A stretch of DNA of 64,000 nt from Thermoactinospora rubra (lineage in GTDB: Bacteria; Actinomycetota; Actinomycetes; Streptosporangiales; Streptosporangiaceae): the NCBI RefSeq assembly GCF_002093975.1, contig NZ_KZ084324.1:315606-379605 (forward strand). Direction: 5' to 3'. A program made the position numbers and the translations under genes. Each line of letters opens with the position of its first letter. Positions within the stretch are counted from its first letter, which is position 1. The notes under the pieces were generated by a model, which was not told where the DNA came from, did no database searches, and saw nothing but the letters and a program-made list of their open reading frames with translations. Of the stretch, positions 26,786-41,083 are shown piece after piece.

Positions 26786-27031
26786 CCTTCACCGGATTTT
26801 TCCGGCAAGCCATCCCGTGTCAGCCCGCCGTGACCTTGGTGTCAGCGGAACCGCACGGCCGATCGCCCTCGCAGTGCTCGTAGACCATAGGCCCGGCATA
26901 CAGGTACGGCAATCCTGATGAACAGGCGGACGCTGGACCGCCCCGACTGGTAGCGCAGCGACGTGGGACATATCGACCTGTCCTGAGTTGTCACTAGCGG
27001 ATGGGTGGGTTAGAGGTATAGAACACAGTTT
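26786..27031. other. Spacer before the HNH gene, lower GC
   Basis: No independent gene is seen. The GC content falls toward 55-60% near 26980-27040, and this DNA together with the HNH gene lies in the replaced 3' end of the helicase gene. Confidence 0.5.
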
Positions 27032-30000
27032 GTGATCATGTCCTTGGGTGACGACCTGGACAGCCGAGTCCGGATTGCAGCGATGGCCTGGTTGCAACGG
27101 CGATGTACTCCGGACAATCCGGTAGTCACACGCGACGAGCTGCTCAACTTCCAGTTTGAAGGCCGGACATTCGGTCTCATCGATCGCCAGCTGGGCATCC
27201 GCAAGCCGAAGGAACTGAGCGCCGCCCTCTCCATCCTGACCACCTACACTTCCGACGGCGAGCGTGCGCCCTATGAGGACGAAGTGGGAACGGATGGCCT
27301 GCTGCGCTACAAATTCCAGGGCGACAACCCGGACCTCTACACAAATCTCGGGCTCCGCCGCGCCTATGAGCTTGGACTGCCCCTCATCTGGTTCTTCGGC
27401 GTGAAGCAGGGCCTGTATCTGCCGTTCTTCCCGGTGTGGATCGTCGCCGTGGAGCTCGACCGACTGCAGGTAGCCGTGGCGCTGGAGGAGGCGCAGCGGC
27501 ACGTCCGGGTGGATGGGCCGGTGAGCGAGATCGAGCGCCGCTACTCCGTCAGCATGACCAGGCGGCGGCTCCACCAGCCGGTCTTCCGGCAGCGGGTGAT
27601 CCAGGCGTACGAGACGAGCTGCGCGATGTGCCACCTCAGGCATCTGTCGCTGCTTGATGCCGCCCACATCATCCCTGACCGGGAGGAACGCGGCGTCCCC
27701 GCGGTGTCCAACGGGCTGGCGCTGTGCAAGATCCACCATGCCGCCTATGACCAGCACATCCTCGGGATTCGTCCCGACCTGGTGATCGAGGTACGGTCCG
27801 ATATCCTCGAAGAGATCGACGGGCCGATGCTCAAGCACGGCTTGCAGGAGATGCACGGCCTGCGACTGGTGGTGCCGCGCCGCAGGGCAGACCGGCCCAA
27901 GCCAGAGCTGATCGAAGAACGGTACGAACGCTTCCGCGCTGCCGGATGACCATGCGGCATGGCGGAGCGCTTCTTCGTACTGGTCGATGGTGACGAAGAA
28001 CAGGTCGGCGTTCGCCTCGGGCACCCACTTGACGCCTTCACGCATGTGGGCGGGCCTGTCCACGCCGAAGGCGGCAAGGGCCTCGTTCTTGCTGTAGGTG
28101 GCGTGGACGTGCAGGGGGATGTCCCCGGGCAGCGGGTGCGTCACGCGGTGGCGGCGCTCGGCGAGCACGCCGGCCAGCTCCCGCAGCTCGCTCACCCGGT
28201 CCGGGTGGGCCAGCAACTCGGCCAGCCGCGTCTCGGCCGTGGAGGCGGGCTCGGCGCCACCCCAGAGCGCCGCGTCGAGCATCGCGAGCAGCCGCTGCTC
28301 GCGAAGCGACTCCCCGCCACGCGGGCGGCGCAGGAAGGCCAGCCGATCCGGGTCGTCGATGTGGAGCATGCGGCCGAGCGCCCTGCCGATCCTCTCGTCC
28401 TGCGGCCCTGCCGTAGCTCCCCTGCCGGCGGCTCGCCGCAACGCCGCCCAGCCGGGGCGACGGCGGTACAGGTCCTCCAGCTCCAGCCCCGTCTCTTCGA
28501 GGAAGGCGGCCAGGGTGGTCCGCTCGGGCAGCGAGGCGAGCTCGGCGGCCAGGTCGGGCCAGCGCAGGTTCAACGTCTGGCGGATGTTGTCCAGCACCAG
28601 CCGCGAGACCTCGCGGTCCAGGTCGATGTGGCAGCCGGGCGGCAGGGTGGGAAAGCCCGCCTCGACCTCGCGGGCGACTCCGGTACGGCTGGCGCCGGTC
28701 AGCGCGCGATAGCGGCGGTCGAAGCGGAACCGGCGGTGCTGGTTGCCGATGAAGTCCAGCACGGTCAGGCAGGCCTTGCCGTCGTCCAGGCGCAGCCCGC
28801 GCCCGAGCTGCTGCAGGAAGACGGTGGCGCTGTCGGTCGGGCGCAGGAACAGCACAGTGTCGATGCTCGGGATGTCGACGCCCTCGTTGAACAGGTCGAC
28901 GGCGAAGACGGCGTTGATCTCACGCGACCGGAGCTTCCGAAGCCCCGCCTCCCGGTCGGCGCGCGGGGTGCGCGAGGTGATGGCCAGGGCAGGGATGCCC
29001 GCCTCGGTGAAGCGCCGGGCCATGTACTCGGCGTGCTCGACGCTGACGCAGAAGCCCAGCGCCCGCATCCGCCCGACATCGCCGACCTTGCGGCGCAACG
29101 TCTGCAGCACCAGGCGGACGCGGGCGTCGTTGCCGGTGAAGACGTCGCTGAGCCGTGCCAGGTCGTAGCCCTGCCCGCGCTTCCATGGCACCTCGGAGAG
29201 ATCCACGCCGTCGTGCACGCCGAAGTACTGGAACGGCGCCAGCAGCTGCCGTTCGATGGCCTCCCACAGGCGCAGCTCGACCGCGATCCGGCCGCCGAAC
29301 CAGTGCTTGACGTCCTGGCCGTCGGCCCGTTCCGGAGTAGCGGTGAGGCCGAGCAGGACGCGCGGCTTGAGATGGTTGAGCAGGCGGGTGTAGGTGGCCG
29401 CCTCCGCGTGGTGGAACTCGTCCACGATCACCATGTCGAACGCGGCCGGATCCTCGATGGCGATGCGGTGCAACGACTGGATGGAGGCGAACACGTGCCG
29501 CCACTGCTCGGGTCTCCGCCCGCCGACGTACAGCTCGCCGAAGGCGCCGTCGCGCAACACCTGGCGGAAGGTGGCCAGGCTCTGGATGAGGATCTCCTCC
29601 CGGTGGGCCACGAAGAGCAGCGAGTCGACCTCGCCCGCCTCGCGCAGCCCTCGGTAGTCCAGCGCGGACACCACCGTCTTGCCGGTCCCGGTGGCCATCA
29701 CCACCAGGTTGCGCCGGCGGTTGTGGATCTGCCGCTCGGCGGCGAGCTCGGCCAGCACCTCGCTCTGGTAGCCGTAGGGGCGCACGTCCAGCGACGCGAT
29801 CGCGAGCGGCAGCTCGCGCGGCCCGGCGCCCTCCAGCTCCAGCGCCTCGTCCAGGCGGGCGCGGGCCTGCGCCGAAGCGGGGTCGTAGTCCTCGAAGGCC
29901 GGATCGCCCCAGTACTCCTCGAAGGTGGCAGCAAAGGTGTCGAGTAGATGCGGCTGCTCCACGCCCGACAGGCGGACGTTCCACTCCAGCCCGTCGATCA

Positions 30001-30721
30001 GGGCGGACTTGGACAGGTTCGAGGAGCCGACGTAGGCGGTGGAGAAGCCGGTCTCCCTGTGGAACAGCCACGCCTTGGCGTGCAGCCGGGTGGTCTTGGT
30101 CTCATACGAAACCTTGATGTGGGCGCCCAGCTCGGCCAGCCGGTCCAGCGCGCGGCGCTCCGTCGCGCCCCGGTAGGTGGTCGTGATGACCCTCAGCCGC
30201 CCGCCTCGCCGTACGAACTCGGACAGCTCGTCCTCGAGGATCCGCACGCCGTACCAGCGGACGAACGCGCACAGCAGGTCGACCCGGTCCGCCGAGGCCA
30301 GCTCCCGCTTCAGCTCGTGGCCCACGCTCGGCTGCCCGTGCCCGTTGACCAGCAACGCGCTGGCCGCGAGCGGCGTCTGCGGGCGCTGGGGGAAGACCGG
30401 CTCGCCGGCGGGGGTACGGCGGCGCGTCACGGCCAACAGCAGCTCGCGCGAGCTCGCCACCAGATCGTCCTGCGCCACCTCGCCCAGGACCGCGACGAGC
30501 CGGTTGGCCAGCTCGACCTGGCGGGCCAGCCGTTCGGCGTCGGTGCCTCGCAGCGAGCGCAGCGCCCTGCGCGTGAGCGCGGCCAGGTGGGCGGTCAGCA
30601 CGTCCGCGGCCTCGACCTGGTCGAGCGGGCGTCGCTGGGCCAGATCGCCGTGGGCGATCAGCTCACGCGCCAGCCCCTCGGTGACGAGTCGCTCGTAGAG
30701 CCCCGGGGCAAGATCGCTCAT
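26789..30721 (-). CDS. PLD-nuclease / DEAD-DEAH helicase / DUF3427 protein, 3' end replaced
   Basis: The recognisable protein is about 920 residues (to about 27955). A PLD-type nuclease domain lies near 150-285 (LHAKAWLFHRETG, VGSSNLSKSAL). The SF2 helicase domain has ATGTGKTVV near 343, VIVDEFHHAE, LLGLTATPE and QQLGRGLRLDDGK. A DUF3427 start follows (HATYSKNEALAAFGV, ADLFFVTIDQYEEAL). Homology stops at the point where the opposite-strand HNH gene ends. The frame then runs on for about 390 residues as the antisense of HNH and spacer DNA, with no family resemblance. Such proteins occur in phage-defence islands. A GTG at 30730 is an alternative start. The extra C-terminus may or may not be made. 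Confidence 0.75.
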   Translation of the reverse strand: MSDLAPGLYERLVTEGLARELIAHGDLAQRRPLDQVEAADVLTAHLAALTRRALRSLRGTDAERLARQVELANRLVAVLGEVAQDDLVASSRELLLAVTRRRTPAGEPVFPQRPQTPLAASALLVNGHGQPSVGHELKRELASADRVDLLCAFVRWYGVRILEDELSEFVRRGGRLRVITTTYRGATERRALDRLAELGAHIKVSYETKTTRLHAKAWLFHRETGFSTAYVGSSNLSKSALIDGLEWNVRLSGVEQPHLLDTFAATFEEYWGDPAFEDYDPASAQARARLDEALELEGAGPRELPLAIASLDVRPYGYQSEVLAELAAERQIHNRRRNLVVMATGTGKTVVSALDYRGLREAGEVDSLLFVAHREEILIQSLATFRQVLRDGAFGELYVGGRRPEQWRHVFASIQSLHRIAIEDPAAFDMVIVDEFHHAEAATYTRLLNHLKPRVLLGLTATPERADGQDVKHWFGGRIAVELRLWEAIERQLLAPFQYFGVHDGVDLSEVPWKRGQGYDLARLSDVFTGNDARVRLVLQTLRRKVGDVGRMRALGFCVSVEHAEYMARRFTEAGIPALAITSRTPRADREAGLRKLRSREINAVFAVDLFNEGVDIPSIDTVLFLRPTDSATVFLQQLGRGLRLDDGKACLTVLDFIGNQHRRFRFDRRYRALTGASRTGVAREVEAGFPTLPPGCHIDLDREVSRLVLDNIRQTLNLRWPDLAAELASLPERTTLAAFLEETGLELEDLYRRRPGWAALRRAAGRGATAGPQDERIGRALGRMLHIDDPDRLAFLRRPRGGESLREQRLLAMLDAALWGGAEPASTAETRLAELLAHPDRVSELRELAGVLAERRHRVTHPLPGDIPLHVHATYSKNEALAAFGVDRPAHMREGVKWVPEANADLFFVTIDQYEEALRHAAWSSGSAEAFVPFFDQLWLGPVCPAARHHQSQAVHLLQAVLEHRPVDLFEDIGPYLDHQVGTNPEDVLVIGGMVDLAQRQPVGHRGDAAFLPVRDDVGGIKQRQMPEVAHRAARLVRLDHPLPEDRLVEPPPGHADGVAALDLAHRPIHPDVPLRLLQRHGYLQSVELHGDDPHREERQIQALLHAEEPDEGQSKLIGAAEPEICVEVRVVALEFVAQQAIRSHFVLIGRTLAVGSVGGQDGEGGAQFLRLADAQLAIDETECPAFKLEVEQLVACDYRIVRSTSPLQPGHRCNPDSAVQVVTQGHDHKLCSIPLTHPSASDNSGQVDMSHVAALPVGAVQRPPVHQDCRTCMPGLWSTSTARAIGRAVPLTPRSRRADTGWLAGKIR
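27032..27949 (+). CDS. HNH endonuclease, restriction-like
   Basis: The protein has 305 residues (GTG at 27032 or ATG at 27038). The C-terminal HNH domain (about 198-250) has CAMCHLRHL, LDAAHIIPD (first His), SNGLALCKIHHAAYD (Asn and last His) and a Cys pair. The N-terminal 190 residues (TDGLLRYKFQGDNPDLYTN, FFPVWIVAVELD) resemble the reader region of ScoMcrA-like modified-DNA endonucleases. It is likely to cut DNA, perhaps modified or foreign. The gene is convergent with, and lies over, the 3' end of the helicase frame. GC is lower than that of the flanking genes, which suggests transfer. Confidence 0.8.
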   Translation: MIMSLGDDLDSRVRIAAMAWLQRRCTPDNPVVTRDELLNFQFEGRTFGLIDRQLGIRKPKELSAALSILTTYTSDGERAPYEDEVGTDGLLRYKFQGDNPDLYTNLGLRRAYELGLPLIWFFGVKQGLYLPFFPVWIVAVELDRLQVAVALEEAQRHVRVDGPVSEIERRYSVSMTRRRLHQPVFRQRVIQAYETSCAMCHLRHLSLLDAAHIIPDREERGVPAVSNGLALCKIHHAAYDQHILGIRPDLVIEVRSDILEEIDGPMLKHGLQEMHGLRLVVPRRRADRPKPELIEERYERFRAAG

Positions 30722-30847
30722 GGCCGGCACCGTACTGGAGGATCACGGCACCTGTGGAGTGGTTCCCCCTCGGCCCTCAGACATCGGTCCCTCGGACTGA
30801 GCGCAAGGTGTCTTTCCGTCCTGGTCCCTGTGGACGATGCTCGTGTC

Positions 30848-31299: not shown

Positions 31300-32010
31300 T
31301 CACTGCTGCGAGGCGCCGCCCAGGATCTCGCTGCGGTAGGTGAGCAGGTGCTGCCGCCAGACCTCGGCCGCCTCCGCCGTCTTCCCCGCCTTGATGTGCT
31401 TGATCACCATGCGGGCCTCCTCGATGTGGCCGCTCCTGACGCTCGGCTCGGCGAGCGCCCGCCGCCGCAGCTCGGTCCAGAGCGGGCCGTCCACGTGCCG
31501 CAGCGCCTCCTCAAGTGCCTGCTCCAGGATGGGATTGCGGGCGGCCTTCGCGATGGCCCGGTGGAGCGGCAGGTCGCTGGAGTACGCGCCCGTCTCGGCG
31601 AACTCCGCCTCCAGCTTGGCGAGCGTGCTCTCCAGCATCCGGAGGTCTTCGGGGTAGCGCTTCTCGGCGGCCAGGGCCGCCAGGCTGGGCTCGATGGCCA
31701 GCCGCGCCTCGAAGACCTGCGGGGGGAGCACCTCGACGCCCCAGGTCGCCACCGCCGCCGCCGACCCGGTCACGACCGTGCCCCTGCCCTTGTAGGACTT
31801 GGCCAGCCCCGCCAGCTCCAGCGCCGCCAGCGCCTCCCTGATGGTGGGCCGGCTCACGTCGAAGTTCTGCGCCAGCTCCCGCTCGGAGGGCAGCTTGTCG
31901 CCCGGTTTGAGTTGCTCGTCGCGGATCGCCGCCACGATCTGGTCCGCGACCTGGACGGCGGCGCTCTTCTTGACCACCGGCGTCATCGCGAACCTGGGAC
32001 CACCTGCCAT
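31300..32010 (-). CDS. FadR-type GntR transcriptional regulator
   Basis: The protein has 236 residues from the ATG at 32010, which has GAGGAG nine bases upstream; ATG 32043 is an alternative. The HTH (about 10-75) has QVADQIVAAIRDEQLKPGDKLPSERELAQNF and SRPTIREALAALE. The helical FCD-type C-terminus has DLPLHRAIAKAARNPIL and an EEARMVIKHIKAG region. It is the presumed repressor of the catabolic cluster at 32.1-40.9 kb. An AGGCAACCT motif lies just upstream of it and again before the aminotransferase and lyase genes. Confidence 0.85.
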   Translation of the reverse strand: MAGGPRFAMTPVVKKSAAVQVADQIVAAIRDEQLKPGDKLPSERELAQNFDVSRPTIREALAALELAGLAKSYKGRGTVVTGSAAAVATWGVEVLPPQVFEARLAIEPSLAALAAEKRYPEDLRMLESTLAKLEAEFAETGAYSSDLPLHRAIAKAARNPILEQALEEALRHVDGPLWTELRRRALAEPSVRSGHIEEARMVIKHIKAGKTAEAAEVWRQHLLTYRSEILGGASQQ

Positions 32011-32056
32011 GTGCCTGGACTCCTCGTGCCGACTCGCGACCATGGTAACAAGCGGC

Positions 32057-32068
32057 TAGGCAACCTGG
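32057..32068. promoter_or_regulatory. Putative FadR operator at its own gene
   Basis: TAGGCAACCTGG at 32057-32068 shares AGGCAACCT with the motif upstream of the lyase gene (33771-33779) and, inverted, near 33659-33667. It is 47 bp upstream of the start at 32010 and supports autoregulation. Confidence 0.55.
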
Positions 32069-32115
32069 CACGTCGCTCCCGCGAGTGGCCTGCACGGTCC
32101 AACGACAAGGAGCGG

Positions 32116-32511
32116 TCACCAGGAGGCCACGCCGATACGGTGTCCCGCCGCCACGAGCGCGTCGCGGGCGGCGGCCACCTGCGACGTCTTCACCAGCAGG
32201 TAGTCGGTGTCGTATGTCGAGACGGCGAAGACCGAGATCCCAGCCTGGGCAAGCGGGGCGGTGAGGGCGGACAGGATGCCGACCAGCCCGAAATCTAGCG
32301 TGCCCGCCACCCGGAACGCGCTCCAGCCGCCTTCCACCTTGGCCGCGGCGGGCTCGCTCCCGCTCGGGCACACGACCGACACCTCGTCACTCGTCACAAC
32401 CAGTGCGAAAAGAGACGCCTCCAGGGGTACGGCAGGCGGCTCGGCGCCCGCGGGCAGGCGGCACACCGAGAACGAGCCGGTCAGCGGCTCCAGCTCCACC
32501 TTGACCATCAT
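32116..32511 (-). CDS. ACT-domain protein
   Basis: The protein has 131 residues. Two ACT-like modules are visible: FALVVTSDEVSVVCPSG and the second with LVGILSALTAPLAQAGISVFAVSTYDTDYLLV, cited as GILSALTAPLAQAGISVF. The pattern matches the CASTOR/DUF-type ACT proteins that sense amino acids. The start overlaps the aminotransferase stop by four bases, so the two are co-translated. It may sense or bind the amino acid handled by the cluster. Confidence 0.78.
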   Translation of the reverse strand: MMVKVELEPLTGSFSVCRLPAGAEPPAVPLEASLFALVVTSDEVSVVCPSGSEPAAAKVEGGWSAFRVAGTLDFGLVGILSALTAPLAQAGISVFAVSTYDTDYLLVKTSQVAAARDALVAAGHRIGVASW

Positions 32512-33635
32512 GCGCTCCTGGGCAGGTCGCGCACGACCGGGGTCAGCGCCTCCAGAGCCTCGGCCACGTACGCCGCGTCCATCCCGATGTTGATGCGGAA
32601 CCACCCCTCGCACCCGAAGAAGGCGCCTGGCGCGACGAGCACGCCGGCCCGCTCCATGAACAGCCGCCCCACCTCGACGGAGGACAGCGGGCTGTCATAG
32701 CGCACGAACGCCAGCGCCGAGGCCATGGGCGCGTGGAAGAACAGCCTGCCGTCCTGCTGCTCGACCCAGGCGGAGAACAGCTCGTAGCCCCGTCGTACGC
32801 ACTCGCGGTTGCGGTGCAGCAGCCGGTCGCGCACGGGTCCGCTGAGCGCCAGCTCGGCCAGGTGGTTGTCCAGGCGGCCTGTGGCGATGGTGAAGTACTC
32901 GTGCCGCCGCCACAGGTCGGCGATGCGCGGCGTGGCGGAGACCGCCCAGCCGATGCGCAGCCCGGACAGGCCGTAGGACTTCGACAGGCTGCCGACGCCG
33001 ATCACCCGCTCGCTCCTGCCGACGAAGGAGGGGGTCTCCTCGGGCGCGAGCCGTTCGCTGCCGCGGTAGACCTCGTCGGCGATCAGCCAGGCGCCGCTGT
33101 CCTCGGCGGCGCGCACGATCTCGTCCATCTCGCCGGGGGTGAGGATGGAGCCGGTGGGGTTGCTCGGGTTGCAGACGTAGATCAGTTTGGCGCCGCCGGC
33201 GGCGGCCTCGCGGAGCTGGTCCAGGTCGGGTGCCCAGCCGCGTCCGGGGTCCAGCCGGAAGCCCCTGACGTCGCAGCCCTTGGTCCTGGCCAGGCCCCAT
33301 ACCTGGCGGTAGCCGGGCTCCATGACCACCACCCGGTCGCCCGGCTCGCACAGCGCGTCCACGATGGCCGCGTTGGCCTCGGAGGCGCCGACGGTGACCA
33401 GCACGTCGTCCGGCCCTACGCCGTCGTAGAGGCCGGCGATGCGGCGGCGCAGGGACCGCTCGCCGTTGACCTCGGGGTAGTAGAGCGGGATGGACAGGAT
33501 CCGCTCCAGGCCGTCGGCTTCGCCGAGGAGGTCCGCGACGGTGACCGGGTCCACGGTCGAGTCGGCCAGGTTGAAGCGGACGGTCCGCTCGTAGTCGGAC
33601 TGCCAGTTCTCGAGCTCGAACGTCTGGAAGGGCAC
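32508..33635 (-). CDS. PLP-dependent aminotransferase, capreomycidine-synthase-like
   Basis: The protein has 375 residues of fold type I. It has YVCNPSNPTGSILTPGEM, IADEVYRGSE and the PLP-lysine motif SLSKSYGLSGLRIGWAV. The N-terminal FELENWQSDYERTVRFNLADSTV resembles, in LE-W-Y-S spacing, the VioD/capreomycidine-synthase group; this is given by its core LENWQSDYE. That group includes both biosynthetic and catabolic enzymes. It diverges from the lyase gene at 33799 across a 163-bp region with FadR-type motifs. The actual substrate is unknown. Confidence 0.8.
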   Translation of the reverse strand: MPFQTFELENWQSDYERTVRFNLADSTVDPVTVADLLGEADGLERILSIPLYYPEVNGERSLRRRIAGLYDGVGPDDVLVTVGASEANAAIVDALCEPGDRVVVMEPGYRQVWGLARTKGCDVRGFRLDPGRGWAPDLDQLREAAAGGAKLIYVCNPSNPTGSILTPGEMDEIVRAAEDSGAWLIADEVYRGSERLAPEETPSFVGRSERVIGVGSLSKSYGLSGLRIGWAVSATPRIADLWRRHEYFTIATGRLDNHLAELALSGPVRDRLLHRNRECVRRGYELFSAWVEQQDGRLFFHAPMASALAFVRYDSPLSSVEVGRLFMERAGVLVAPGAFFGCEGWFRINIGMDAAYVAEALEALTPVVRDLPRSA

Positions 33636-33645
33636 GGACGCTCCT

Positions 33646-33668
33646 CAGGCAAAAGGTAAGGTTGCCTG
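33646..33668. promoter_or_regulatory. Dyad in the aminotransferase promoter
   Basis: CAGGCAA (33646-33652) and TTGCCTG (33662-33668) form a perfect 7-bp dyad with a 9-bp spacer, 11-33 bp upstream of the aminotransferase start. The right arm belongs to AGGTTGCCTGG, the inverse of the motif at 33770-33780. Confidence 0.6.
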
Positions 33669-33726
33669 GCAGGATGCATCACCGTGCTCGCGTCGTCAAG
33701 GGCAGCTATTTCGTGAAATTTCCCTC

Positions 33727-33783
33727 TTGACAGGGCTTGGCTGGCGATGAAGTCTGGCTGGCAACCTACCAGGCAACCTTTCA
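33727..33783 (+). promoter_or_regulatory. Promoter and FadR-type motifs before the lyase
   Basis: TTGACA at 33727-33732 is a good -35; the -10 is weak (about 33750-33755). GGCAACCTACCAGGCAACCT (33760-33779) contains GGCAACCT twice, 11 bp apart, at the expected operator position before the lyase at 33799. The motif is shared with 32057-32068 and, inverted, 33659-33669. Confidence 0.6.
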
Positions 33784-33798
33784 AGTGAGGGTGATGCT

Positions 33799-35088
33799 AT
33801 GGACGAGCGGGAGCCGTCCCCGACCCGCGTGGAGCACGACCTCCTGGGCGAGATCACGCTGCCCACGAGCCTGCTGTACGGCATCCACACCGCTCGGGCC
33901 AGCGAGAACTTCCGCCTCGGCGGGGAGTCCCTGAACCGGTTCCCCGCGCTGCTGGCCGCCCTCGCCCAGGTGAAGAGCGCCGCGGCCAGGGCCAACGTGA
34001 AGCTGGGCGTCCTCCCCGAGGAGGTCGGCCGGGCGATCAGGGCCGCGGCGGCCGAGGTCGTCGCGGGCGGCCTGCACGAGCACTTCCCGCTCGACGTGGT
34101 GCAGGGCGGCGGCGGCACCTCCACCAACATGAACATGAACGAGGTGCTGGCCAACCGCGCGTCGATGCTGCTCGGCGGCCGGGTGGACCCGCACGACCAC
34201 GTGAACCGCTCCCAGTCGACCAACGACGTGATGCCGACCGCGGTGAACATCGCGGTGCTGGTGACCGCGCGCTCCGCCGTACGGTCCCTGCGGCTGCTGG
34301 CCCACTCGCTGAGCGCGAAGGCCGGCCAGTACGCCTCGCTGGAGCGGCTGGGCCGTACCTGCCTGCAGGACGCGGTGCCGGTGCCGGCCGGACTCGTGCA
34401 CGAGGGCCAGGCCAGCTCGGTGCGGGCGGCGGCGCGGGCGCTGGAGGACGCGGCGGACGCGCTGCTCGCGGTGCCGCTCGGCGCGACCGCGATCGGCACC
34501 GGCCTGGGCGCCCCGGACGGCTACGCCGAGCTGGCCATCCGGTTCCTGGCCGAGGAGACCGGGCTGGAGCTGCGGCAGGCGGGCAACCTCTCGGAGGGCG
34601 TCGCCTCGCTGGAGAGCCTGGCATGGGTGGGCGACGCCATGGCGCGGGCCGGGCGGACCATCGCCCGCGTGGCCGCCGACCTCAGGCTGCTGGCCTCCGG
34701 CCCCGTCGGCGGCTTCGGCGAGGTACGGCTGCCGCCGGTCCAGGCGGGCTCGTCGATCATGCCGGGCAAGGTCAACCCGGTCATGCCCGAGCTGGTGATG
34801 CAGGTCTCCTTCCAGCTCGAAGGCGGCGCGCACATCGTCCACCTGGCCTGCGCGGCCGGGGAACTGGAGGTCACGCCGATGGCGCCGGTGGTGACGGCGG
34901 AGCTGCTGCGCGGCCTGGAACGCCTGGACCGGGTGTCCGACCTGTTCGCCACGCGGTGCGTCGACGGGCTGACCTGGAACGAGGAGGCGGTCCGCGCCAA
35001 CCTCCGCGGCTCGTTGCAGCAGGCCGTCGAGGCCGCCGTCGCCAACGGCCACACCTACGCCGTCACCCGGCTGGAGGCCCGTCCGTGA
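33799..35088 (+). CDS. Aspartase/fumarase-family ammonia-lyase
   Basis: The protein has 429 residues. Superfamily motifs are GGGGTSTNMNMNEVLANRA, VNRSQSTNDVMPTA and the signature loop GSSIMPGKVNPVMPELV. The family cleaves fumarate-yielding substrates; aspartate ammonia-lyase is the closest class by these motifs, but C-N lyases for related amino acids look the same. It starts a plus-strand operon of overlapping genes that includes an amino-acid ABC transporter. Its GTGA overlap with the next gene (35085) shows coupling. Confidence 0.8.
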   Translation: MDEREPSPTRVEHDLLGEITLPTSLLYGIHTARASENFRLGGESLNRFPALLAALAQVKSAAARANVKLGVLPEEVGRAIRAAAAEVVAGGLHEHFPLDVVQGGGGTSTNMNMNEVLANRASMLLGGRVDPHDHVNRSQSTNDVMPTAVNIAVLVTARSAVRSLRLLAHSLSAKAGQYASLERLGRTCLQDAVPVPAGLVHEGQASSVRAAARALEDAADALLAVPLGATAIGTGLGAPDGYAELAIRFLAEETGLELRQAGNLSEGVASLESLAWVGDAMARAGRTIARVAADLRLLASGPVGGFGEVRLPPVQAGSSIMPGKVNPVMPELVMQVSFQLEGGAHIVHLACAAGELEVTPMAPVVTAELLRGLERLDRVSDLFATRCVDGLTWNEEAVRANLRGSLQQAVEAAVANGHTYAVTRLEARP

Positions 35089-36062
35089 GCACCGCACTCG
35101 TCGTCGATCCCGTCCACGACGGCGCCACCGACCCGGTGCTGGTGTGGAACCACGCGGAGGCCGCCTGGTGGTGCCTGTTCGTCCACCGCAGGGCGAACAC
35201 GAAGATCAGCGGCCCGGCCCGGATCGGCCGCTGTCACGGCACCCAGGTCGGGGTGGCGAGTTCCGCCGACGGCGGCCGCAGCTGGCTGTACCGGGGGACG
35301 CTCGACCTGCCCGTGGAGCCGGGGCTCAACACGTTCTGGGGCCCGGACGTCGTCCATCATGAGGGCGTCTACCACATGTTCGTCACGTTCATCCGCGGCG
35401 TCCCCGACGACCCGGCGTGGGACACGCACGGCAGGCCGAGCCCCTGGCACCGGCGGATCCACCACCTGACCAGCCGGGACCTGTGGACCTGGACCCACGT
35501 CTCGCGCCTGGACCTCGGCACGGACCACGCGGTCGACCCGTACGTGCACCCGCTGCCCGAGGGCGGCTGGGGCCTGTGGTTCAAGGACGAGGCGCGCGGC
35601 GGCGGCATCCGGCGGGCCGTCAGCTCCGACCTTCATGAGTGGAAGGCCGCCGACCTCGCGCTGGCCGACTGGCACGAGGGACCGGCCGTCTTCGTCCTGG
35701 GCGGGTACGGCTGGCTCCTGGCCGAGAGCAGGACCGGCCTGGCCCTGTACCGATCCGATGACCTGCGGCGGTGGGAGCCCCGGGGCGGCCTTGCCGTCCC
35801 CGGAGAAAAGGCCCGTCAGCCGTATATTCACCCCATATCTCATACAAGTGCATACATCGTCTATTACGCGCAAACCGGACGGGACAGCTTCGGCGAGGAG
35901 GTGCCGACCTCCAGCCAGGCGTCGGTCATCCGCGCCGCGGAGCTGACCCTGGTCGGGGGCGACCTTCACTGTCGTACGGCGAGCGCACCGGCCCTTCCCG
36001 ACGGCGTGGCGGCCATCCGGCGGCCACCCGGAACCTCGCACAGCAAGCTGGTGGACACATGA
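35085..36062 (+). CDS. Five-bladed beta-propeller glycosidase-like protein
   Basis: The protein has 325 residues. Repeated blades are visible: GVASSADGGRSWLYRG, FWGPDVVHHEGVYHMFVTF, HHLTSRDLWTWTHVSRLDLG, AVDPYVHPLPEGGWGLWFKDE, RAVSSDLHEWKAADL and YRSDDLRRWEP. This is the fold of GH32/43/62/68/130. FWGPDV and the VDPYVHP Asp are plausible catalytic or substrate acids. There is no signal peptide, so it acts in the cytoplasm. Placed between a lyase and an amino-acid ABC transporter, it suggests a substrate with a sugar part. Activity is not proven. Confidence 0.7.
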   Translation: MSTALVVDPVHDGATDPVLVWNHAEAAWWCLFVHRRANTKISGPARIGRCHGTQVGVASSADGGRSWLYRGTLDLPVEPGLNTFWGPDVVHHEGVYHMFVTFIRGVPDDPAWDTHGRPSPWHRRIHHLTSRDLWTWTHVSRLDLGTDHAVDPYVHPLPEGGWGLWFKDEARGGGIRRAVSSDLHEWKAADLALADWHEGPAVFVLGGYGWLLAESRTGLALYRSDDLRRWEPRGGLAVPGEKARQPYIHPISHTSAYIVYYAQTGRDSFGEEVPTSSQASVIRAAELTLVGGDLHCRTASAPALPDGVAAIRRPPGTSHSKLVDT

Positions 36063-37027
36063 ACAACCGCAAGCACCTCGTCCCCGTCGCCGCCCTGCTG
36101 ACCCTGACCGCCTGCGGCACCGCCCAGGACGCCGCCCCGCCCGTCGCCGGAGCGGCCTCGCCCGCCGCGTCCGCCGCGCTCGCCAGGGACGACAAGCTGG
36201 CCGCGCAGGTGCCCGCCGAGATCCGCACGCGCGGCAAGCTCGTCATCGGCACCAACGCCCCCTACGCGCCGCTGGAGTTCTTCGCCGAGGACAACAAGAC
36301 CCTCGTGGGCTTCGAGATCGACACCGGCGACGCGCTTGGGCAGATCCTCGGCCTGAAGGTCGAGTGGCAGAACACCTCCTTCGACAACATCATCCCGGGG
36401 CTGGAGGCGGGCCGGTACGACATCGGCATCGCCGGGTTCGGCATCGAGAAGGACCGGCTGGAGGTCGTCAGCTTCGTCTCCAACTACCTCAGCGGCGGCG
36501 GCTTCCTGGTCAAGAAGGGCAGCGGCGTCAAGGTCAACGACTTCAAGGACACCGTCTGCGGCCTGCGCGTGGCCGTGCAGAGCGGCACCACCCAGGTCGA
36601 GCGGCTGGAGAAGGCCGACGCCTACTGCCGCGGGGCCGGCAAGGAGCCCGTCCAGATCATCCGCATCCCCGACCAGAACCAGGCCGTGCTGACCCTCTCC
36701 AGCGGCCGGGCCGACGTGGTGACGGCCGACAAGCCGGCCGTGGAGTGGGCCGCCAAGCAGTCGGAGGGCGCGCTGTGCGTCACCGGCACCTACCGCACCC
36801 CGCACAGCCTGTCGGGCATCGCCATCCCCAAGCGCAACGCCGCGCTCAACACCGTCATCCAGGCGGCGATGACCAAGCTGATCCAGGAGGGCCACTACAA
36901 GCGGCTGGCCGACAAGTGGGGCGTGGTCGACGGCGCGATCGAGAAGTCGGAGATCTTCACCGAGCCCGGCCAGGTCCAGGACGGCGACGAGATCTTCCCG
37001 CAGCCGATCAAGGAAGGGTGTGCCTGA
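36059..37027 (+). CDS. Polar amino acid ABC transporter, substrate-binding lipoprotein
   Basis: The protein has 322 residues. The lipobox LTAC places the lipidated Cys at residue 19. The periplasmic-binding (SBP_bac_3) core has [59 protein letters not shown], cited as [10 protein letters not shown], and [15 protein letters not shown]. This is the polar or opine-type amino-acid class. It overlaps the upstream gene by four bases and precedes its permease and ATPase. The ligand is probably a polar amino acid or conjugate. Confidence 0.88.
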
Positions 37028-37031
37028 CGGG

Positions 37032-37952
37032 ATGGCGACCGACACCAGAGGCGCCGTGGTGACGGCCGACATCAAGGCGATCCCCGTCCGGCGGCCGTGG
37101 CGGTGGGTCGCCACGGGGATCGTGCTGGTGCTGCTGGGCCTGCTCCTGCTGTCGATGGTCACCAACCCGCGCTACCGGTGGGAGATCGTCGCCCGGTACC
37201 TGTTCGACGGCACCGTCCTGCACGGGCTGCTGCTGACCCTGGAGTTCACCGCCATCGCCATGGCGATCGGCATCGTCCTGGGCGTGGTCTTCGCCGTCAT
37301 GCGCGGCTCGGCCAACCCGGTGCTGTCGTGGACGGCCGCGGGCTACATCTGGTTCTTCCGCGGCACGCCGCTGCTGGTGCAGCTCATCTTCTGGTTCAAC
37401 CTCAGCGCGCTGTACCCCAGGATCGACATCGGCGTGCCGTTCGGGCCGACCTTCCTCAGCCTCGACGCCAACACACTGATCACGCCGTTCATCGCGGGAA
37501 TCCTGGGGCTGGCGCTGAACGAGGGCGCCTACATGGCGGAGATCGTCAGGGCCGGCATCATGTCCATCCCGCGTGGCCAGCTCGAAGCCGCCAGCTCCCT
37601 GGGCATGTCCAAGGCGATGACCATGCGCAAGATCATCCTGCCCCAGGCCATGCGCGTGATCATCCCGCCGACCGGCAACAACGCCATCGCGATGCTGAAG
37701 ACCAGCTCGCTGGTCAGCGTGCTGGCGATCCCCGAGCTGCTCTACAGCGTGCAGATCATCTACGGGCGCAACTTCCAGACCATCCCGCTGCTCCTCGTCG
37801 CCAGCATCTGGTACCTGCTGGCCACCTCCATCCTGACGGCCGTGCAGACCAGGATCGAGCGGTACTTCTCGCCCGACCGGGACCCCGGCCTGTCCTTCGG
37901 CGCGCGCCTGCGCCGCAACCTGCTGTCCCGACGCCACAAGGAGGCCCGCTGA
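37032..37952 (+). CDS. Amino acid ABC transporter permease
   Basis: The protein has about 306 residues from ATG 37032; a GTG at 37020 would add four residues and overlap the upstream stop. It has about five to six membrane segments. The TGxxxTLxxT-like start is seen as [15 protein letters not shown], with [14 protein letters not shown] and the EAA loop [26 protein letters not shown], cited as [17 protein letters not shown]. This is the HisMQ/GlnP single-gene permease type. Confidence 0.88.
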
Positions 37953-38710
37953 TGGCGCTGGTCCGCGCGGAAGGCGTGCACAAGAGCTACGGCAGGCACG
38001 AGGTGCTCAAGGGCATCGACCTGACCGTGGAGGAGGGGCAGGTGCTGTGCCTGGTGGGCCCCTCCGGATCGGGCAAGAGCACGCTGCTGCGCTGCGTCAA
38101 CCACCTGGAGACCATCAACAGGGGCCGGCTGTGGGTCGACGGCGAGCTGATCGGCTACCGGCAGAGCGGCGACCTGCTCTACGAGCTGCCCGACAAGGAG
38201 GTGTGCCGGCAGCGGGCCCGCATCGGCATGGTGTTCCAGAGCTTCAACCTCTTCCCGCACTACACGGCCCTGGAGAACGTCGTCCTCGGCCCCTGCCTGG
38301 TCAACAAGGAGCCGCGCGCCCAGGCCGTCGCGCACGCCGAGGAGCTGCTGCGCCGGGTCGGCCTGGGCGACAAGCTGCACAGCTACCCCACCCGGCTGTC
38401 GGGCGGCCAGCAGCAGAGGGTGGCCATCGCGCGGGCGCTGGCCATGCGGCCGAAGCTGATGCTGTTCGACGAGCCGACCTCCGCGCTGGACCCCGAGCTG
38501 GTCGGCGAGGTCCTCGACGTCATGCGGCAGCTCGCCCGCGACGGAATGACCATGATCGTCGTCACGCACGAGATGGGCTTCGCCCGCGAGGTCGGCGACA
38601 CCCTGGTCTTCATGGACGACGGCGTGATCGTCGAGTCGGGCGACCCGCGGGAGGTCCTGGCCCGGCCGCGACACCAGCGGACCCAGGCTTTCCTGTCCAA
38701 AGTGCTATGA
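37952..38710 (+). CDS. Amino acid ABC transporter ATP-binding protein
   Basis: The protein has 252 residues. It has Walker [11 protein letters not shown]-loop [11 protein letters not shown], signature [16 protein letters not shown], Walker [15 protein letters not shown] and the switch His in [12 protein letters not shown]. It is the GlnQ/HisP class that powers the permease just upstream. The ATG overlaps the permease stop as TGATG. Confidence 0.93.
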
Positions 38711-38729
38711 CTCACGGGAGCTCACCCAC

Positions 38730-39904
38730 ATGAAAGACGTCATCGTGATCGGGCTCGGCGCCATGGGGTCGATGACCGCGTGGCAGGCGGCCGCGGCCGG
38801 CGCCTCGGTCGCCGGCGTCGAGCAGTTCACCGTCGGCCACTCTCGGGGCTCCTCGCACGGCGGGTCCCGCATCTACCGGCAGATCCTGTTCGAGGGCAAG
38901 GAGTACGTGCCGCTCGCCCGCCGCTCACTGGACCTGGTCATGGATCTGGAACGGCGCAGCGGCCGGCCGCTGTTCACCCGCTCGGGCGGCCTGGTCATCG
39001 GCACCGCCGACGGGCCGCTCATCCGCGACACGCTGGCCAGCGCCGCGGCCGGCGAGGTGGAGTACGAATGGCTGGAGCCCGGCGAGCTGCGGCGGCGCTA
39101 CCCGCAACACGCGGCCTTCGACGACGACGTGGCCGTCTACGAGCCGGGCGCGGGCGTGCTGCGGCCCGAAGCCTGCATCGCCGCGGCGGTGGCCGCCGCC
39201 GAGCGGGCCGGCGCCGAGATCCGCACCGGCTCCCCGGTCGAGGAGCTGCGCGTCGCCGACGGGCACGTCGAGGTCGTCACCGGCGGGGAGACCATCAGGG
39301 CCGCCAGGGCGGTGCTCGCCACCGGCGCTTGGGGGCTGGACCTGCTTCCCGGCTTCTCACTGCCCCTGCGTACCCAGCGCTCCTGCCTGTCCTGGTTCCG
39401 CGCCGCCACGGACCCCGCCGAGTACGGCCCGGCACGGTTCCCACGTTCATCAGGGAGAGCGGCCCGCTGGACGGATGGGGCATCCCCGACGTCGACGGCC
39501 AGGGCGTCAAGGTCGGCGTCGGCGGCACGGCCAGCAAGCGCTGGCTGGACCGGCCGGAGGACAACTGGCACGACCCCACCGCCGAGGACCTCGCGCCCAT
39601 CGAGGACTTCTGCCGCCGGGCGTTCCCCGGCCTGACCCCGCGCGCGGCCCACGCCCGGGCCTGCATGAACTCCAAGACCCCCGACGGCGACTTCATCATC
39701 GGGCCCGTCGGCGGGAGCGACCGCGTGGTCTTCGCCGGCGGCTTCTCCGGCCACGGCTTCAAACACTCCCCGGCGGTCGGGCTCATCTGCGCCCAGCTGG
39801 CGCTGGACGGGCAGACCGAGTTCGACATCACGGCCTTCTCCCCCGACCGCTTCTCCAACTCCTCCGGCTCCTCCAGCTCCTCCGGCTTCTCCGGTGAAAG
39901 GTGA
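38730..39904 (+). pseudogene. Sarcosine-oxidase-like FAD amine oxidase, frameshifted
   Basis: The reading frame is broken near 39440-39442 in a CCC run. Up to there (38730 frame) it has GLGAMGSMTAW and HSRGSSHGGSRIYRQ, the FAD-binding region of MSOX/TSOX-type amine oxidases. The rest is in the +2 frame (TFIRESGPLDGWGIPDVDG, ACMNSKTPDGDFIIGP, GHGFKHSPAVG), where the Cys in ACMNS aligns with the covalent-flavin Cys of this family. One missing C explains the shift. It is either a recent loss or a sequencing error. The intact length would be about 391 residues, the normal family size, with a Ser-rich tail. Confidence 0.85.
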
Positions 39905-39906
39905 CC

Positions 39907-40905
39907 ATGCGCTACATCCGGCTCGGGCGTTCCGGGCTCCAGGTCAGCAGGCTCGCGCTCGGCACGATGAACTTCGGCCCGCTCACCGACGAGGCCACCT
40001 CCCACCGCATCCTCGACGCGGCCGTGGACGGCGGCATCAACCTCGTCGACACCGCCGACGTGTACGGCGCCGACGCCAACAGGCAGGTCTACGGGCTGGA
40101 GCCAGACAAGGGCAGGACCGAGGAGATCATCGGCACCTGGCTGGCCAAGACCCCCGCCCGGCGGGACCAGATCGTCCTGGCCACCAAGGCGTACGGCGCC
40201 ATGGGTCCCGGCGTCAACGACATCCGGCTGTCCGCCCGCCGCATCCGCCGCGCCTGCGAGGAGTCGCTGCGCCGGCTGCGCACCGACCACCTCGACCTCT
40301 ACCTGCTGCACCACGTGGACCGCACCACGCCGTGGGAGGAGATCTGGGAGGCCCTGTCACTGTTGCGGCAGCAGGGCAAGGTGCTGTACTTCGGCACCAG
40401 CAACCACGCCGCCTGGCACATCGTGCGTGGGCAGTGCGTCGCCGAGCGCCTGGGCGCCTTCGGCTTCGTGGCCGAGCAGAGCATCTACAACCTCATGCAG
40501 CGCTCGGTGGAACTGGAGGTGCTGCCCGCCTGCCAGGATCTCGGGCTCGGCTTCCTGCCGTACAGCCCGCTGCACGGCGGCCTGCTCGGCGGCATTCTGC
40601 GTAAGGAGCAGGCGGAACGCGGCAAGACGGGCCGGGCCGCCGCGGGCCTGGCCGCCGGCCGCGACCGGGTCGAGCGCTACGAGCAGGCCTGCGACGCTTT
40701 CGGCGAGCACCCCGCGGTCGTCGCCCTGGCCTGGCTGCTGCACCAGCCCGGCGTCACCGCCCCCATCGTGGGCGCTCGCACACTCGACCAGCTGTCCCTG
40801 GCTCAGCGTGCGCTCGAGGTCGAGCTGGACGCCGACCAGCTGGCTCTGCTGGACGAGATCTTCCCGGGTCCCGGCGGTCCTGCTCCGGAGGCGTACGCCT
40901 GGTAG
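39907..40905 (+). CDS. Aldo-keto reductase
   Basis: The protein has 332 residues (ATG 39907 with GAAAGG upstream; GTG 39901 is an alternative). It has MRYIRLGRSGLQVSRLALGTMNFG, the catalytic VDTADVYG (Asp and Tyr), LATKAYG (Lys) and LYLLHHVDRTTPWEE (His). It is the AKR type with NAD(P)H, close to the potassium-channel-beta/YajO-like group. It probably reduces an aldehyde or ketone made by the cluster. A strong terminator follows at 40957-40992. Confidence 0.9.
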   Translation: MRYIRLGRSGLQVSRLALGTMNFGPLTDEATSHRILDAAVDGGINLVDTADVYGADANRQVYGLEPDKGRTEEIIGTWLAKTPARRDQIVLATKAYGAMGPGVNDIRLSARRIRRACEESLRRLRTDHLDLYLLHHVDRTTPWEEIWEALSLLRQQGKVLYFGTSNHAAWHIVRGQCVAERLGAFGFVAEQSIYNLMQRSVELEVLPACQDLGLGFLPYSPLHGGLLGGILRKEQAERGKTGRAAAGLAAGRDRVERYEQACDAFGEHPAVVALAWLLHQPGVTAPIVGARTLDQLSLAQRALEVELDADQLALLDEIFPGPGGPAPEAYAW

Positions 40906-40992: not shown

Positions 40993-41009
40993 CATCAGGT
41001 GTTTTCTGG

Positions 41010-41083
41010 TCGGGGTGAGAGGATTTGAACCTCCGGCCTCTTCGTCCCGAACGAAGCGCGCTGCCAAGCTGCGCTACACCCCG
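41010..41083 (-). tRNA. tRNA-Pro (CGG)
   Basis: A 74-nt cloverleaf on the minus strand. The acceptor arm is CGGGGTG/CACCCCG with discriminator A. The anticodon stem-loop CTTCG-TTCGGGA-CGAAG gives anticodon CGG, and the T-arm has the GGTTCAAATCC loop. No CCA is encoded. Confidence 0.93.

Follow-up and report, generated by a model that had tools for sequence, protein, structure and literature searches.

An SRA-HNH nuclease gene, as predicted from its fold, within the reader region of a SauUSI-type restriction gene of Thermoactinospora rubra

The two genes and the break between them

The stretch of DNA analysed here (64,000 nucleotides, the window) comes from the soil bacterium Thermoactinospora rubra. 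Close to its cutA gene lies a minus-strand ORF (26789-30730, 1313 aa, protein P0001) whose 3' end is overlapped by an HNH gene on the opposite strand (protein P0002); Table 1 lists the features of the locus. P0001 joins a PLD nuclease and an SF2 ATPase in one chain (Pfam matches PLDc_2, ResIII and Helicase_C), has the motifs HAK, GTGKT and DEFH, and matches the PADLOC model mREase_IV with 779.7 bits over residues 112-920. In the PDB its retained part matches SauUSI (7clg). The closest copy found is that of genome G029 (protein P0003), which is intact, has 1020 aa counted from the start used here, and is 86% identical to the window protein over residues 1-921.

A sequence-only reading of this DNA had DUF3427 homology stopping abruptly in the helicase where the HNH gene ends on the other strand. 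Alignment with the intact relative does place a break in homology there: DNA similarity to the G029 gene runs to 27971, near the HNH end although not exactly at it, since 21 nt remain to the HNH stop codon. The DUF3427 match itself did not hold up, because P0001 has none in Pfam at E<=1 and PF11907 was not found anywhere in this genome; it is the intact G029 copy that carries the domain (64.6 bits). The part absent from the window helicase amounts to about the last 100 residues.

What kind of enzyme did this gene encode? On these matches it is a SauUSI-type type IV restriction enzyme, here a broken member without a full reader, which narrows the "defence-type gene" of the sequence-only reading. 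In SauUSI the reader recognises modified cytosine and switches on the ATPase. Like the S. aureus enzyme, the retained part of the window gene (about 918 codons) comprises a PLD nuclease, an SF2 ATPase, a coupler-like region and the start of an SRA reader, and a profile of eight intact relatives aligns to residues 30-920 of 7clg. Unlike it, the window copy has no equivalent of residues ~847-953, Asp858 and Trp868 included, and continues instead as an antisense frame. The SauUSI reader (TRD) comprises residues 806-953 and has an SRA fold, and the published model places Asp858 and Trp868 at the flipped base (PMC7913695; further literature background in PMC6212794, PMC7461809 and PMC3874153). The last residues in common with G029 are FVTID, which puts the break at about residue 915-920 of P0003 and, by manual count, at about residue 845 of SauUSI. 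Residues D929 and W939 of P0003, which pair with SauUSI D858 and W868 by manual count along the 7clg profile alignment, are invariant in the eight aligned proteins and sit in the stretch that the window lacks.

Beyond the break the helicase frame happens to stay open. As the sequence-only reading proposed, this tail is largely a shadow of the HNH gene: it is codon-aligned antisense of that gene, its mean coding score is -0.27 per codon as against +0.52 for 27974-30730, and the HNH frame on the opposite strand scores positive. The lower GC reported for the HNH gene was also confirmed (64% versus 72% for the helicase). An expressed, selected antisense tail was considered as a special feature of the locus and rejected, since a GC3 of this level commonly leaves the antisense frame open: among 41 relatives scored (from the best 80 of at least 568), 13 are similar in GC3, and 4 of the 13 are also free of stop-giving codons.

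The HNH gene has an alternative in-frame start, the ATG at 27038. The -10-like TAGAAC lies only 7 nt before the GTG, and to judge by this spacing the transcript is probably leaderless. A box resembling GTGTAGAA is found just before the start in 9 of the 14 HNH relatives for which upstream DNA was printed; the other five, all from Actinomadura, differ upstream and have no such box.

Table 1. Features of the locus (positions in the window)
Feature	Positions	Strand	Basis
Helicase frame continuation, ~394 codons, mostly HNH antisense shadow	26789..27970	-	coding score, codon-aligned antisense
Terminator-like palindrome CCGGATTTTTCCGG, between former helicase stop and CutA stop	26792..26805	.	read from sequence
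Decayed helicase 3' remnant, ends with original stop codon 26820-26822	26820..26967	-	blastn/tblastn, alignment, shuffle control
Inserted cassette: promoter-like sequence and predicted SRA-HNH gene, ~0.96 kb	26993..27949	+	box in relatives, spacing, remnant limit
Putative HNH promoter	26994..27024	+	-35-like CTAGCG (26994), -10-like TAGAAC (27019)
Predicted SRA-HNH endonuclease gene, 305 aa, GTG start	27032..27949	+	HNH_2, AF2, fold matches, alignment
21-nt junction filler holding 13-nt perfect palindrome CCATGCGGCATGG (27950-27962)	27950..27970	.	outside G029 alignment
Retained 5' part of SauUSI-type gene	27971..30730	-	86% aa to G029, 7clg match, Pfam

Origin of the arrangement

Helicase matches occur in 29 of the 54 Nonomuraea genomes, in 30 copies. 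Of these copies 23 are full length, in one piece to residue 1017 or beyond; seven fall short (G000, which is this genome, G002, G004, G007, G016, G020 and the second copy of G039), and draft assembly may have cut some of them. Seven of the 54 genomes carry the HNH gene and only this one also has the helicase, the six others giving no helicase match at E<=1e-40. Thus the intact relatives have a longer C-terminus than the window protein rather than the same one, and the HNH gene is not their normal neighbour, both as the sequence-only reading would have it. The six other HNH genes of the genus have different neighbouring genes, and by eye no shared flanking DNA was seen among HNH genes beyond the promoter-like box. 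A sample of the class (296 genomes) gave 42 genomes with a helicase match (E<=1e-60, partial matches included) and 20 with an HNH match (E<=1e-30). Both genes are present in two, this genome and G190, in the latter on different contigs, and a pairing of HNH gene and helicase as a general rule was accordingly rejected. An apparent avoidance of the two genes at genus level (1 genome in common, of 29 and 7 in 54; one-sided p 0.03) was set aside as too weak and post hoc.

A tRNA-Pro(CGG) gene (41007-41083) adjoins a conserved core block (41007 onward) found in 53 of 53 genus genomes; the other side of the tRNA gene, below 41007, differs between species. The intact helicase of G029 lies 1.2 kb from this tRNA gene and the HNH gene of G031 2.1 kb from it; with respect to the tRNA, both are oriented as they are in the window. 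In 20 further genomes neither gene was found at this place, over a stretch of up to 15.6 kb (5.2 kb in one, at a contig end). In the window a 10-kb cluster separates the tRNA gene from the helicase/HNH locus. Named by eye from translations, the cluster at 31300-40905 looks like amino-acid metabolism and transport; for the DNA at 31300-35100, matches occur in 5 of 53 genus genomes (this genome being one of the five), and the G031 match is far from the tRNA gene. When the rest of the window was searched for repeats of the tRNA-Pro gene, matches did not exceed 14 nt. It is plausible that the HNH gene arrived at a variable locus common to sister species.

Two genes found near the same tRNA gene in sister species might simply have been convergent neighbours here, a deletion that reached the HNH stop codon having taken the 3' end of the helicase gene, and nuclease genes do adjoin this helicase family in some genomes. 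What lies beyond the HNH gene speaks otherwise. Searching the window with the G029 C-terminus (blastn and tblastn) gave colinear fragments on the helicase strand, past the HNH gene, at E ~1e-8: 26967-26914 (78%), 26910-26847 (78%) and a gapped fragment at 26850-26820 (81%) that overlaps the end of the second and contains the stop codon. The fragments are in differing frames, with internal sequence missing, and are not readable as one protein. The two main ones score 51.8 and 44.6 bits. As controls, 200 dinucleotide shuffles of the window gave no score above 36.5, and 27 query windows taken elsewhere in the helicase gene did not exceed 35.6 bits against the remnant interval. The third, at 28.3 bits, is below the shuffle level and was accepted for its place and order only. 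The original helicase stop is 34 bp from the cutA stop, the two genes being convergent. Because helicase remnants flank the HNH gene on both sides, an insertion is shown. A deletion between neighbours would have left no helicase sequence, let alone its stop codon, in that position; it is contradicted on this ground and we give it next to no credence.

The same remnants bear on the possibility that the assembly, a draft of 113 contigs, wrongly joined the HNH gene to the helicase. In such a chimera the HNH gene would hardly be flanked on both sides by helicase sequence, decayed on the far side. The HNH gene is moreover present in one place in the genome, and its closest relative found (G031, 87% aa identity) leaves no near-identical source in sight, so that this explanation too is scarcely credible.

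We consider it likely, from the arrangement of the sequences, that an SRA-HNH cassette inserted into the reader of the SauUSI-type gene, leaving a truncated host gene and an intact newcomer. The ATP-dependent type IV gene would originally have been convergent with cutA, running from 30730 down to its stop at 26820. Into its C-terminal SRA reader region, and in the opposite orientation, went a cassette of some 0.96 kb, made up of the SRA-HNH gene and its own promoter-like sequence. The insertion cost a few dozen reader codons, including the counterparts of SauUSI Asp858 and Trp868 (the remnant starts at about residue 950 of P0003, so D929 and W939 are absent from the window), and the remainder of the reader would then have decayed. 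The sequence-only reading, an insertion inside a defence-type gene that left a truncated helicase beside a restriction-like nuclease, is thus supported by the remnants on both sides. Its further claim that the helicase 3' end had been replaced stands as to the insertion but not as to a clean replacement, the gene having rather been interrupted, with a small loss of target and later decay.

The left edge of the cassette falls between 26968 and ~26993. On the right, similarity to the G031 HNH gene ends at 27950; the filler between this point and the helicase break is unlike the G031 sequence past the HNH stop (by eye) and lies outside the G029 alignment. Its palindrome stands directly 3' of the HNH stop and is found at this one place in the window at <=1 mismatch. 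The insert has no transposase frame and the two junctions show no direct repeat, hence no target-site duplication. One 10-nt, 90% repeat pair (26917-26926 and 27995-28004) lies on both sides but inside helicase sequence, and longer repeat pairs are ~71% alike and involve the HNH gene. The lack of a transposase and of a duplication, together with the small target loss, would be in keeping with a DNA fragment having been captured at a break.

Could the HNH gene instead be a mobile element of the homing type, with this helicase site as its target? It encodes a nuclease, brings promoter-like sequence of its own and sits inside another gene, and a comparable case exists: in genome G191 (L215:3452-8163) a DDE transposase gene divides a SauUSI-type gene at residue 914. 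The likeness lies in the host gene family and the nearly identical codon. The inserts, however, are unrelated, a DDE transposase there with the 3' part of the host still conserved, a nuclease gene without a transposase here, and we read the G191 split as an independent insertion near the codon of the window break. Target bases were also lost in the window, and the HNH gene recurs at a homologous helicase site in none of the six other genus genomes that carry it, which have no helicase match (E<=1e-40) and different gene neighbours. A homing element is thus very improbable.

In this one locus a putative modification-dependent restriction gene can be seen taking the place of another such gene, having landed in the domain used for recognition: the remnant is in decay, the motor-nuclease part is preserved and the incoming gene is intact. 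Both enzymes are of known kinds; it is the nesting of one putative modification-dependent nuclease in the reader of another that is unusual. A literature search covering titles and abstract openings, with subscription literature largely outside its scope, turned up neither a report of this locus nor any case of an SRA-HNH gene lying within a gene of the SauUSI type.

Fold and relatives of the HNH protein

The Pfam match of P0002 is to HNH_2 (36.9 bits). At least 568 relatives were confirmed among candidates in GTDB genome contigs, of which the best 80 were kept for analysis of loci; P0002 and 59 of these 80 make up a 60-member alignment. An AF2 model based on the 60 sequences has a pLDDT of 92. 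Foldseek matches to the model at E<0.001 were only TagI (6e-9) and three ScoMcrA chains. With VIA-align, TagI scored Z 13.5 over 212 residues with an rmsd of 15.6, the two domains being arranged differently; taken separately, residues 12-182 of the model match the SRA domain of SUVH5 (Z 11.5, 3.2 Å, 124 residues) and residues 182-304 the HNH domain of VcaM4I (Z 11.3, 2.8 Å, 112 residues). SauUSI's own reader gave Z 5.8 against the model. A profile search of PDB sequences gave VcaM4I at E 0.33 and TagI at E 0.64, neither significant.

Within the alignment C197, C200, H212, C232, H235 and H236 are invariant and N227 is conserved in at least 90% of members, so that the canonical H-N-H residues and a structural zinc motif are present. 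The base pocket of TagI has two tyrosines and an aspartate. The invariant Y81 and Y93 of P0002 keep the 12-residue spacing of TagI Tyr55 and Tyr67; Asp58 of TagI stands at Tyr55+3 and the invariant D83 at Y81+2, an offset of one that leaves the pocket aspartate of P0002 only approximately placed. P0002 thus resembles TagI, ScoA3IV and TbiR51I in its predicted N-terminal SRA and C-terminal HNH domains, its CxxC motif and its conserved H-N-H residues, but differs from TagI in having no significant sequence match to it. By predicted fold it is an SRA-HNH nuclease of a branch far from TagI in sequence, a finer assignment than the "restriction-like nuclease" of the sequence-only reading. The model would thereby tie to the SRA-HNH fold a widespread family that is named only HNH in the libraries searched. 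The phosphorothioate-dependent SBD-HNH enzymes (NF045808; SprMcrA, EcoWI) have a related HNH domain, and NF045808 matches P0002 with 66.2 bits over residues 176-295, below its 180-bit cut-off; the reader of P0002, however, is SRA-like and not an SBD.

From fold and motifs, P0002 is most likely a modification-dependent nuclease that carries both an SRA reader and an HNH cutter. It would read modified cytosine with this SRA domain and cut nearby, and could take over restriction of the 5mC/5hmC type from the gene it interrupts. As expected for the host of a 5mC-dependent nuclease, the cytosine-C5 methylase family PF00145 was not found in this genome; the control was positive in 10 of 14 genomes.

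The idea of the HNH family as phage cargo was rejected, with one partial match in 50,697 phage records, 12 matches in 72,556 plasmid records (all <60% identity) and one partial match in viral contigs. SauUSI-type proteins, nearly full length and 47% and 41% identical, were seen in two IMG/VR contigs (L237 and L238).

Fate of the retained nuclease-ATPase part

What has become of the truncated SauUSI-type enzyme? With most of its reader lost, it probably no longer restricts on its own. To go by SauUSI, without SRA binding the old ATPase would not be switched on at modified sites, which would leave the enzyme silent or unguided. The gene may then be a plain pseudogene in early decay, its remaining constraint reflecting a recent insertion. 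Copies are often incomplete (7 of 30 in the genus), reader loss should abolish target recognition, and the frame would end in ~394 antisense-read residues; we put this at somewhat under an even chance. Against it stands the difference between the two parts of the gene: the remnant has frame shifts, missing stretches and excess change, and the ~918 retained codons are open and in frame.

The retained part aligns with G029 in frame throughout (22 gapped columns), with a dN/dS of 0.17 over 910 codons. Among columns identical in nine outgroups, 10 are changed in the window alone, 23 in G029 alone and 126 in both; branch-specific codon changes number 41 synonymous and 19 nonsynonymous in the window, 44 and 35 in G029. 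The remnant was compared at the 117 sites that still align, in a post hoc test polarised by distant outgroups. At codon positions 1 and 2, window-specific changes number 7 of 78 in the remnant versus 36 of 1814 in the retained part (p 0.0015), and G029-specific changes 3 of 78 versus 54 of 1814 (p 0.42); unpolarised, the figures are 14 of 78 versus 156 of 1816 (p 0.008). Polarisation is ambiguous in the remnant for all 11 third-position differences and for 4 of the 14 at positions 1 and 2. Three pairs of other intact copies show the same end of the gene to be more conserved than the rest at these positions, and two pairs with G029 do so slightly. The last 120 codons before the break, compared between the window and G029, differ at 29 of 240 such sites, above the average of the retained part, and some of the remnant's excess change may be regional. 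These comparisons, few in counts and picked once the data were known, suggest that the cut-off reader decayed while the retained part kept its frame and constraint, although a recent insertion could explain part of this. The nuclease-ATPase part shows purifying selection, which lends modest support to the view that it was perhaps not simply dead after the insertion.

One such outcome would be a re-wiring, in which the reader-less nuclease-ATPase is still produced, selection keeps it and the SRA domain of the HNH protein reads for it in trans, the two genes forming a nested, convergent defence unit. We regard this as unlikely, though it would be in keeping with 4 loci, among the best 80 of at least 568, in which a SauUSI-type gene adjoins the HNH relative at a distance of ~50-110 bp and shares its strand. 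The adjacent helicase is full length in L133 and L168; in L182 and L185 it matches only from residue 315, that is from the ATPase on. The locus makes testable what a reader-less SauUSI-type motor-nuclease does and whether it can borrow its partner's reader.

Other neighbourhoods were seen in passing. The L182 and L185 helicase frames carry another helicase-like segment upstream. In L119 (6963-12320) a 1785-aa AAA/MTES_1575 protein adjoins the HNH gene; it has a weak likeness to the anti-phage protein ProA (196.6 bits, cut-off 1500), and its single-linkage similarity cluster touches 12 HNH loci among the best 80 of at least 568. SBD-HNH genes lie beside intact or broken SauUSI-type genes in six Nonomuraea genomes, divergently in G004, G010, G016, G025 and G039 (loci L089, L091, L097, L098 and L099) and convergently in G006 (L092). 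Two of these six SBD-HNH neighbours were scored, and both are above the NF045808 cut-off.
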